Assembly (NCBI GenBank): GCA_013178015.1
Contig: JABLXR010000021.1
Location: 1 to 60,403, forward strand
DNA from: Anaerolineae bacterium
GTDB lineage: Bacteria; Chloroflexota; Anaerolineae; DRVO01
Reading direction: 5' to 3'
Length of the DNA: 60,403 nt
Shown here: in pieces, positions 2,295 through 5,228 of the stretch
Numbering within the stretch: position 1 is the first letter of the stretch
How the letters are laid out: each line of letters begins with the position of its first letter
Notes under the pieces: model-generated
What the model saw: the letters and a program-made list of their open reading frames with translations, nothing else
Told to the model about the DNA's origin: nothing
The model's database searches: none
Made by a program: the position numbers and the translations under genes

Positions 2295-4001
2295 TCAGCG
2301 ACGACTGTCACCTCCGGCAGCGGCGGACCGGCGAGCCCGCTTCGCCCGTACGCGCACCGGCAGCAGATCCGCCAGACGCTCGCGCTCCCGGAGGGGCTGG
2401 CCCGATTCCGGGTGCACGGCCACGCAGGCGCCCCGCTCGTCTATGCGGCTGACGATGCGGCCGCAGGCATAGAGGTTGTTCTTCAGGTGGGGCGCATCCA
2501 GGATGCCCGCGGTCACCGCCCGCGTCAGTACCGCAGCGTCCGCCAGCGGGTCCCGCACCTCGGCAGCAGCCAGGGCCTTGATGGCCTCTAGAGTCACCCT
2601 CGCCTCCGCCACCAACTCCTCCTTGCGCTCGCGGACGCGGGGGTCCACGGTCATGTCGGGCTGGCCGCGGACGGCATTCTCAACTGCCCGGCGGGTGACC
2701 TTGCTAGCGGCGATGACGTCTTCGGCGGTGGCGGCGTGGTGAGCCTCCGTGTGCCCCACCACGTGGACGATGTGCGGGTTCACCGCCATCTGCAGGTAGG
2801 TTGCGGCACCGAGGTGGCCTCGAGCCGCCTCGTCATCCAGGGGGTGGCTGAGCAGGCCCACGCGAGTCTGCCGCCAGATGCGGAAGTCCGGTCCGGCCAG
2901 GGGCTCGATGATCTCCAGGCAGGCCAAGGCTTTGGCCAGGTCCATGGTGTCGGAGACGCCGGGCGGGCTGTTGAACATGAGCTGGGCGACGTAGTCCCGC
3001 ACCCCGTAGGCCTTGGCGTTGTAGGCGGAGAGGTAGGCGGACACCACGTAGATCACGTCGGGGGCATCGCGCATGCCCCAGTGGTGGGGCTCGTTGAGCT
3101 CCACCGGAATGCCCCGCTCGCCGTACCAGGCGATCAGCTTCTGGTGCTCGTGGACCGACTGCTCCAGGCTGTGGGGCCCGCGTCCGTCCATGGCGTTGAA
3201 CCAGTAGAGGGGCACGGCGGGCCAAGCGATGTTGATGGTATCCACGTACATCTCGGCCAGCCGGATGAGGTCGTCGGTGCCGGAGTAGGTGCGCATGAGG
3301 GGGTAGTTGCCCCGGCGCGAGGCCCGGTACAGGGCTCGGTAGTCGTCCGCACTGCGTACAGGCACGCCGCCGGCCCCGGCCCGGCCCGGGTCCTGGCGCT
3401 CGGGGTGGAAGAAATTGGCTTGTGCGTCCTGGTCTGTGCCCAGGGAGATGACATCCAGGGTGCGCGATTCGGCGATCTTCTCTATCCCCTCGACCGTCTC
3501 CTGCATGGTGGGCAGGCCGAAGTGATGCCGCAGTAAGGGGTAGGGCGCCTTCCAGGCGATGCGCTCCAGGAGCGTGTGAGGGAAGTCCTCCTCCAGGGTG
3601 GGCAGGCGACTACCCCGCACGTAGGCGAGCACCTCGTCCAGCGTCTGAGAGCCATCGAAGACCGCATCGAAGAAGTCGCCCAAAGCCCGAGCCTGGTCGG
3701 CCACGGGCGGCGTACCGCCGAAGGCGAAGCGCACGCCCCGCCCCCGCAGATCGGCCCCCGCCTCGGCCAGCTGCCGCAACAGCCTCTCGCCCGTCTCTGG
3801 GGTGAGCCGGTAGGAGACGCCCACCAGATCGGCGGCTTCGGCCCGAGCCACTTCGATGACCCGCTCCACGGGCACGGCTGGGCCCAGGAACACGGTCCGC
3901 CAGCCGGCCTGCTCGGCCAGCCGCAGGAAGTTCACCACACCGGCGACGTGGACGCACTCGCCCAGGGCCGCACCCACAACTACCTTCTGCTTTTCGTTCA
4001 T
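2295..4001 (-). CDS. Cobalamin-binding-domain protein with mutase-like C-terminal region
   Basis: The 568-aa protein starts with a B12-binding Rossmann fold. GECVHVAG at residues 14-21 aligns with the GADCHAVG of glutamate mutase small subunits, keeping the cobalt-ligand His18 and Gly21 but with Cys16 in place of the Asp of DxHxxG. The long C-terminal part (about 170-500) contains SLGTDQDAQANFF and ELNEPHHWGMRDAPD and looks like a TIM-barrel, methylaspartate-mutase-E-like region. Binding and catalytic domains would therefore be in one chain. GGAG lies 8 nt before the ATG. A c-di-AMP riboswitch lies in its leader. The reaction is unknown; an aminomutase-like carbon-skeleton rearrangement is one possibility. 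Confidence 0.7.
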   Translation of the reverse strand: MNEKQKVVVGAALGECVHVAGVVNFLRLAEQAGWRTVFLGPAVPVERVIEVARAEAADLVGVSYRLTPETGERLLRQLAEAGADLRGRGVRFAFGGTPPVADQARALGDFFDAVFDGSQTLDEVLAYVRGSRLPTLEEDFPHTLLERIAWKAPYPLLRHHFGLPTMQETVEGIEKIAESRTLDVISLGTDQDAQANFFHPERQDPGRAGAGGVPVRSADDYRALYRASRRGNYPLMRTYSGTDDLIRLAEMYVDTINIAWPAVPLYWFNAMDGRGPHSLEQSVHEHQKLIAWYGERGIPVELNEPHHWGMRDAPDVIYVVSAYLSAYNAKAYGVRDYVAQLMFNSPPGVSDTMDLAKALACLEIIEPLAGPDFRIWRQTRVGLLSHPLDDEAARGHLGAATYLQMAVNPHIVHVVGHTEAHHAATAEDVIAASKVTRRAVENAVRGQPDMTVDPRVRERKEELVAEARVTLEAIKALAAAEVRDPLADAAVLTRAVTAGILDAPHLKNNLYACGRIVSRIDERGACVAVHPESGQPLRERERLADLLPVRVRAKRARRSAAAGGDSRR

Positions 4002-4074
4002 GGTCTACACTCCACTAACTGAGATATGGCGAACACTCGGCGTCACAATCGAACCGGATCGGGGAAGGCAAGAT

Positions 4075-4157
4075 GCCTCTGGCCCGAAGCCTGAGCCGGC
4101 CCAGCCGGGGCACGGCCAGATGCGGGGACCCTGGGGACGCTCTTCGGGCCCTGAGGC
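4075..4157 (-). promoter_or_regulatory. Long hairpin between riboswitch and B12 gene (possible expression platform)
   Basis: On the minus strand the arm read from 4157 to 4142 pairs with the arm read from 4089 to 4075 through GGCCCGAAG/CTTCGGGCC plus an outer GCCTC/GAGGC, giving about 14 pairs with a small bulge. It lies between the aptamer and the B12-protein start, where a transcriptional expression platform would be. No strong U tract follows. Confidence 0.45.
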
Positions 4158-4189
4158 TCAATGGCGGGGCCACTTCCCCCGTTCTTCCG

Positions 4190-4335
4190 GCTGCCTACGA
4201 GGTTAGCTGACGGGTTCGGGCTGGAAGAGCTGCCCTACGCGCCTGCTCGGCGGGGATGGCACTTCCATCCCCGTACCTAAGCGCGACTCACCCCGGCTGG
4301 TTGGATCCCCCGCCTCCCACTCGGGAGTTCGGCGC
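4190..4335 (-). ncRNA. Cyclic-di-AMP riboswitch (ydaO/yuaA class)
   Basis: Read on the minus strand, this region shows the ydaO/yuaA consensus in order: a GCCGAAC 5' strand, GGGGGATCC, CCGGGGTGAGTC, TTAGGTACGGGG with its hairpin, CCCGAACCCGTCAGC, and the diagnostic TAACCTCGTAGGC closing the outer stem. Order and spacing match the family as known from Bacillus ydaO, which binds c-di-AMP and usually switches expression off. The next gene on this strand starts at 4001 (B12-binding protein). Usual targets are cell-wall hydrolases, K+ transporters and osmolyte genes, so this target is unexpected. Confidence 0.9.
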
Positions 4336-4484
4336 CGGTAGTATACCACGAGCAGAGCCGCCGCGCGCGGCAAGTACCGCCGCCGGGGCAGCCCAGGTTG
4401 TGCCGAACCGGGCGGGGCCAGACCCCATCTTCGTGCAGACCGCGATAGCCCGTCACCCGGAGGGACAGGCCCTACATCCGCGAC
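4336..4484. other. Leader/upstream DNA with no gene seen
   Basis: This lies between the end of the MBL-hydrolase gene and the riboswitch. The promoter for the riboswitch transcript should be here or in the MBL gene. A GGTAGTATACC palindrome at 4337-4347 is the only AT-containing motif noticed. Confidence 0.4.
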
Positions 4485-5228
4485 CTAATGGTAGCTCTCC
4501 GGCACCAGCAGCCGATCCATCCGGGCCAAGGCCGCCTGAAGGTGCCGGTACCCTTCCCTGAGGGCGGGCATGGTGTGGCCGGGCAGGAAGACTTCCACGT
4601 CCAGGGCGGCCAGGCGGCGCACCGTCTCCAGGTGGGCTTGCAGGTCGCAGTCGGGGATGTTCTGCAGCAGGATCTTCCCCCCGGCGAATACGTTGTCCCC
4701 CCCGAACAGGTGCAGCTTGCCATCGCGCCGGAAGGTGAAGGCGCAGTGGCCGGCGCAGTGACCGGGCGTCTCCAGCAGCTCGAAGGTGACGTCTCCCACC
4801 GTCAGGGCCTCACCGTCCTCCAGCACGCGGTCCACCGGGCAAGCGCGGAAGACGTAGTCGGGGTCGTAGAGGCCGGCGCGCTTGGCGGCGCCCATGCTGA
4901 TCATCTCTTCGTCCCCCCGGCGCAGGGCCTCGGCCGTGTGGGACGTGGCCACCACCTGCACGCCCAGCCTCTCGTAGAAGTCCGCCGCCCCGCCGCTGTG
5001 GTCGGCGTGCTTGTGGGTGACGAGCAGGTGAGTCACCGCCTCCGGATCCAGTCCGTCGCCCCGCAGGTGACGCAAGATCAGGTCGGTGCCCTCGCCACCC
5101 ACGCCGGCGTCCACCAGGGCAATGGGCCCGTCGCAGTCCACGGCGTAGACGGTGCAGTCGCTGCGGTGAGACAGGAACAGACCATTGGCGCCGCTTCCCA
5201 CCAGGTACACACGATCGGTCAGGCGCAT
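4485..5228 (-). CDS. MBL-fold metallo-hydrolase
   Basis: The 247-aa protein has the metallo-beta-lactamase signature THKHADHSGG (HxHxDH, about residues 78-87), then further His/Asp ligands in ETPGHCAGH and FGGD and a late LPGHT. These bind two metal ions for hydrolysis of thioesters, lactones or phosphoesters; glyoxalase-II-like enzymes are relatives. I chose the inner ATG at 5228 because AGGAGG (5235-5240) sits 6 nt upstream; an ATG 24 bp earlier lacks this. The substrate is not predictable. Confidence 0.85.
   Translation of the reverse strand: MRLTDRVYLVGSGANGLFLSHRSDCTVYAVDCDGPIALVDAGVGGEGTDLILRHLRGDGLDPEAVTHLLVTHKHADHSGGAADFYERLGVQVVATSHTAEALRRGDEEMISMGAAKRAGLYDPDYVFRACPVDRVLEDGEALTVGDVTFELLETPGHCAGHCAFTFRRDGKLHLFGGDNVFAGGKILLQNIPDCDLQAHLETVRRLAALDVEVFLPGHTMPALREGYRHLQAALARMDRLLVPESYH

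Follow-up and report, generated by a model that had tools for sequence, protein, structure and literature searches.

A c-di-AMP riboswitch and its predicted control of a B12 mutase-like and opine dehydrogenase operon in Anaerolineae

The riboswitch locus

The window, by which we mean the whole stretch of 60,403 nucleotides of an Anaerolineae bacterium analysed here, carries on its minus strand a c-di-AMP riboswitch aptamer followed by the genes of a B12-binding enzyme and of an opine-type dehydrogenase (Table 1). A preliminary description had read at this place the ydaO/yuaA consensus ending in CAGCTAACCTCGTAGGC, with the B12-binding gene next on the strand and the dehydrogenase gene after it, and both readings are borne out: cmscan finds a full-length match to RF00379 (model positions 1-134 of 134) with 80.8 bits, far over the gathering score of 38, and an E value of 3.2e-17. 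This is the sole Rfam match in the whole window and the single copy of the riboswitch in this genome; the span 4001-4335 first assigned to it comprises the leader and the aptamer minus the first bases of the latter. The conserved core GTCAGCTAAC, the GGGGUGA motif, P1 and the tail-loop pairing are all present in the cmscan alignment and in an alignment with 20 relatives, AGCTAAC is unchanged across the 20 aptamers, counterpart tail-loop arms are discernible in the aptamers of relatives, and CAGCTAAC lies within the aptamer RNA. As an RNA it is unremarkable within a known riboswitch class, and the novelty resides in its target operon.

Table 1. Coordinates of the features of the riboswitch locus in the window
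Feature	Position	Strand	Basis or remark
Opine dehydrogenase, CENDH family, 369 aa	1081..2190	-	PF02317 (Octopine_DH), 8e-51
B12-binding and glutamate-mutase-epsilon-like enzyme, single chain, 568 aa	2295..4001	-	Pfam, AlphaFold2, Foldseek
Shine-Dalgarno GGAG	4010..4013	-	8 nt upstream of ATG
Candidate expression platform, 9-bp inverted repeat GGCCCGAAG...CTTCGGGCC	4081..4150	-	arms at 4150-4142 and 4089-4081; no U-tract
c-di-AMP riboswitch aptamer (ydaO/yuaA, RF00379)	4177..4344	-	cmscan, full length
3' arm GGAAGA of tail-loop pairing	4183..4188	-	read from sequence
Signature CAGCTAACCTCGTAGGC	4193..4209	-	read from sequence
5' arm UCUUCC of tail-loop pairing, can pair with GGAAGA	4223..4228	-	read from sequence
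Putative extended -10 promoter TGGTATACT	4340..4348	-	by eye from sequence

A gene or promoter that would separate the aptamer from the B12 gene was looked for: the intervening 176 nt, down to 4001, hold no coding gene, and the scan of positions 3950-4500 on both strands returned neither a promoter or terminator nor a full sigma-70 consensus site. Upstream, on the same strand, about 140 nt separate the aptamer from the end of an MBL-fold hydrolase gene (5252-4485). As the putative extended -10 element lies directly 5' of the aptamer, transcription would start at the first helix of the latter, making the aptamer the leading part of its mRNA; TATAAT or TATACT boxes occupy a similar position directly 5' of the aptamer in two other loci (L127 and L129).

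Terminator-type platforms are common in the RF00379 class, without being strictly defining, and a terminator shortly after the aptamer is the customary layout of c-di-AMP OFF switches. Classical intrinsic terminators are found 34-46 nt past the aptamer core in three riboswitch-operon loci (L126, L128 and L130). The scan of the leader in the window found no intrinsic terminator after the aptamer and no U-tract, which sets this locus apart from the class. The leader holds an inverted repeat whose 3' arm could also pair with the aptamer GCCCGAA (4221-4215), and its CCCCGGCTGG (4110-4101) is complementary over 10 nt to the aptamer CCAGCCGGGG (4300-4291). Among shuffled sequences, 0.5% show a 9-bp arm with an additional pairing to the aptamer, and 5% show the 10-nt pairing. 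As an expression platform, this repeat and these pairings are candidates that the sequence makes suggestive only. Sequestration of the Shine-Dalgarno by the aptamer core was rejected, its duplex energy being at the level of shuffled sequences, and so was an unusual folding energy of the whole leader (z -0.22). It is the lack of a U-tract terminator and the chance level of Shine-Dalgarno sequestration that leave the platform of the window as a candidate.

The two enzymes of the operon

The 568-aa product of the first gene combines a B12-binding domain (PF02310, 1.9e-13) with a Met_asp_mut_E domain (PF06368, 1.4e-7). The top Foldseek matches of its AlphaFold2 model (pLDDT 84) are the epsilon subunits of glutamate mutase (6h9e_B and 1cb7_B, E 1e-15 to 3e-15), followed by ornithine 4,5-aminomutase and lysine 5,6-aminomutase, and its N-terminal domain resembles in fold the sigma subunit of glutamate mutase. 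It shares with glutamate mutase (GlmS/GlmE; 1cb7, 6h9e), its best fold match, the B12 domain and a TIM-barrel-type, MutE-like catalytic domain, and differs from it in being a single chain, in an identity of about 16-18% and in its cobalamin motif (residues 16-21), which reads CxHxxG, with Cys where DxHxxG has Asp, and is invariant in 26 homologues. Because of this motif we file the protein as glutamate-mutase-like and not as glutamate mutase; the phylum sample yielded no bona fide MutE sequence on which the glutamate-binding residues could be mapped.

A paralogue of about 1,200 aa, which numerous genomes of the class encode, fuses the B12-binding and glutamate-mutase-like domains to a MutL/GlmL reactivase domain; one copy (L136 2-3172, minus strand; G051:C50) adjoins a distant opine-dehydrogenase-like gene. 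The longer paralogue has the same layout plus the reactivase, which supports adenosylcobalamin chemistry. The protein of the window is a single-chain, glutamate-mutase-like enzyme, predicted to be of the adenosylcobalamin type.

The 369-aa product of the second gene matches N-(1-D-carboxylethyl)-L-norvaline dehydrogenase (CENDH, 1bg6) over its whole length (phmmer, 1.7e-75). It has the NAD-binding domain, the Octopine_DH helical domain and the catalytic His and Asp regions of opine dehydrogenases, its HP..LN and RY..ED motifs lining up with those of 1bg6. What distinguishes it from 1bg6 is its genomic partner, the B12 mutase-like gene. Judged by its sequence, it is a true opine dehydrogenase relative of the CENDH type.

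Distribution and gene neighbourhoods

The riboswitch is present in 67 of the 396 genomes of the class. By crossing the riboswitch-bearing genomes with the homologues of the B12 protein and then reading the loci, we found it 5' of this operon in six genomes, which belong to five families: the window (G000, f1), G244 (f36), G091 (f31), G025 (f24), and G075 and G008 (f7), the opine gene and not the B12 gene coming first after the riboswitch in f7. Riboswitch and operon occur together in about 24 genomes, which contain about 43 riboswitches; assuming about 3,500 genes per genome, we estimate that chance would yield about 0.02 adjacent cases, against the six seen. In the protein tree, from which the G091 protein (L127) is left out, the riboswitch label corresponds to three changes over four rows, a pattern that may reflect several gains, or gain and loss.

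In 80 homologous loci of another genome collection the B12 and opine genes stand together in nearly all, and the covariance model found no riboswitch in these loci. The operon is also present in a cultured relative, Anaerolinea thermolimosa (L050). The upstream sequence reaches at least 400 nt in 70 of the 77 usable loci, and the model recovered 25 of 25 control loci. The absence of the riboswitch from some 70 homologous operons for which 400 nt or more of upstream sequence could be scanned, though the model recovers all controls, points to a lineage-specific wiring, and the pairing is a minority state among operon-bearing genomes. The wider phylum has B12 homologues and riboswitches as well, yet the contig of the window is the only one on which both were found. 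The regulation deduced in the preliminary description from position alone thus gains support from the recurrence of the pairing in six genomes and five families, and the pairing does not extend to the 70 or so further loci; the regulatory link between riboswitch and operon is predicted, and well supported by comparison. That the link would be accidental, the aptamer being a real but decayed or bystander copy, is very improbable: it would fit the lack of an aptamer in most homologous operons and of a clear expression platform in the window, but the aptamer is intact over the full model length and the pairing recurs far beyond random expectation.

Genes of the NhaA, Na_H_Exchanger, CitMHS/ArsB-type or Na_Ca_ex families, among them the Na+/H+ antiporter families PF06965 and PF00999, lie in 13 of the 80 homologous loci, a raw count. 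In L092, L093 and L099 the beginning of the B12 reading frame overlaps with an NhaA gene, and a Na_H_Exchanger gene lies upstream of the riboswitch of G025. The pair is followed by AsnB-type amidotransferases in about 18 loci, by DUF5698/DUF2179 membrane proteins in 17 (for example L101 9216-9836 and L079 7768-8352) and by ATP-grasp ligases in 8. Small PII-like proteins also recur beside it (L096 2487-2825; no Pfam match).

The host genome is equipped to make c-di-AMP, since it encodes a CdaA-type diadenylate cyclase (DAC domain), followed by a YbbR/CdaR-like gene; it also encodes two c-di-AMP receptor domains (CdAMP_rec, DarA/PstA-type). In G025, a tandem CdAMP_rec gene stands between the aptamer and the B12 gene, whose reading frame is interrupted there. 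Such tandem genes, with two receptor domains in one chain, stand directly 5' of the B12 gene in L033 (4136-4840) and L129 (6339-7037, minus strand). In L033 the row runs Na+/H+ exchanger, CdAMP_rec, B12, opine, and the receptor gene precedes the B12 gene with no aptamer. In L082 and L094 the divergent neighbours include CdAMP_rec-like genes. On a further contig (L144 61-596, minus strand; G151:C268), the riboswitch lies directly 5' of a CdAMP_rec gene, which places a receptor gene under the riboswitch of its own ligand, and a B12-opine pair lies about 5 kb away.

A model for the operon and its alternatives

The c-di-AMP regulons known frequently point to osmotic and ion-homeostasis proteins, and sediments, hot springs and digesters abound in Anaerolineae (Chloroflexota), whose osmolytes are poorly known. 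In the model we propose, a dedicated mRNA would begin with the class-typical riboswitch and carry the two genes of the operon, whose products, the glutamate-mutase-like enzyme and the CENDH-type opine dehydrogenase, would make or recycle an opine-type amino-acid derivative, acting as a compatible solute or a cation-stress metabolite. High c-di-AMP, signalling that there is no osmotic stress, would shut the operon off, and low c-di-AMP would allow its expression. To this reading as a whole, a c-di-AMP off-switch on an opine-type osmolyte or cation-stress operon with its ligand response, direction and product all conditional, we assign a probability of about 0.68; the OFF direction taken by itself is likely. 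The osmolyte role and the product of the operon are what we infer: an earlier guess in this sense is supported by the antiporter and exchanger neighbours of 13 of the 80 loci and of one riboswitch-bearing locus, and the restriction of these neighbours to a minority of loci speaks against it.

The riboswitch could instead control the operon for a catabolic or nitrogen-related pathway, such as the turnover of amino acids or opines, with glutamate or nitrogen status, rather than osmolytes, as the route by which c-di-AMP acts. Such a pathway would suit the likeness of the mutase to glutamate mutase, as a rule an enzyme of fermentation, and the downstream AsnB-type amidotransferases, and in B. subtilis c-di-AMP has been connected with glutamate homeostasis (PMC7857571); we hold this alternative to be rather unlikely, as the genes around the pair code for Na+/H+ and Na+/Ca2+ transporters and for c-di-AMP receptors, and not obviously for fermentation. 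It is likewise unlikely that the device would be an ON switch, or would work by pausing or Rho, with the GC-rich leader pairing with the aptamer when the ligand is missing. The lack of a U-tract terminator in the window and the leader elements complementary to the aptamer would suit such a device, but these complementarities are only mildly unlikely by chance and absent from the other loci, and the relatives have the ordinary terminators that OFF switches would have.

Our preferred reading, the off-switch on an osmolyte operon, has a precedent in Dehalobacter, where a c-di-AMP riboswitch, in a tandem Na+/c-di-AMP arrangement, shuts off the lysine-2,3-aminomutase gene of an unusual amino-acid osmolyte (PMC9337991). 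Both systems place such a riboswitch on a mutase or mutase-like gene; the window differs in its B12-domain, glutamate-mutase type of enzyme, in the added opine dehydrogenase and in having no Na+ riboswitch, RF03071 exceeding its cut-off in none of 298 genomes of the class. With the ydaO/yuaA class at large it shares the full-length match, the typical conserved core, the aptamer-first transcript and, in related loci, the terminators, and departs from it in a target made of B12 mutase-like and opine dehydrogenase genes instead of cell-wall, K+ or known osmolyte genes. The open-access literature searched, to which the full target list of Nelson 2013 does not belong, holds no record of this target operon, no paper joining opine dehydrogenase, cobalamin and glutamate mutase, and none joining the c-di-AMP riboswitch, ydaO and Chloroflexi.

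The riboswitch points to an uncharacterised enzyme pair that is widespread in Anaerolineae and, if the model holds, would connect B12-dependent chemistry with a second messenger and predict a new opine-type osmolyte. More tentatively, and with the odds somewhat against it, the Anaerolineae may possess an undescribed opine-type compatible solute produced by a B12-dependent carbon-skeleton (or amino) mutase and an opine dehydrogenase, and placed in some lineages under c-di-AMP control by the riboswitch and a co-transcribed receptor protein.

At other places in the class the riboswitch stands 5' of genes for LytR-CpsA-Psr, ABC transporters, a cation ATPase and Proton_antipo_M proteins. In L003, L004, L008, L010 and L017 it lies 5' of a nucleotidyltransferase gene resembling that of an enzyme of di-myo-inositol-phosphate (osmolyte) synthesis, accompanied in L003 by a CDP-alcohol phosphotransferase; this association speaks for the osmolyte reading of the B12-opine operon. 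In L013 and L114 it is found upstream of a caspase-like gene, confirmed by Pfam in L114.
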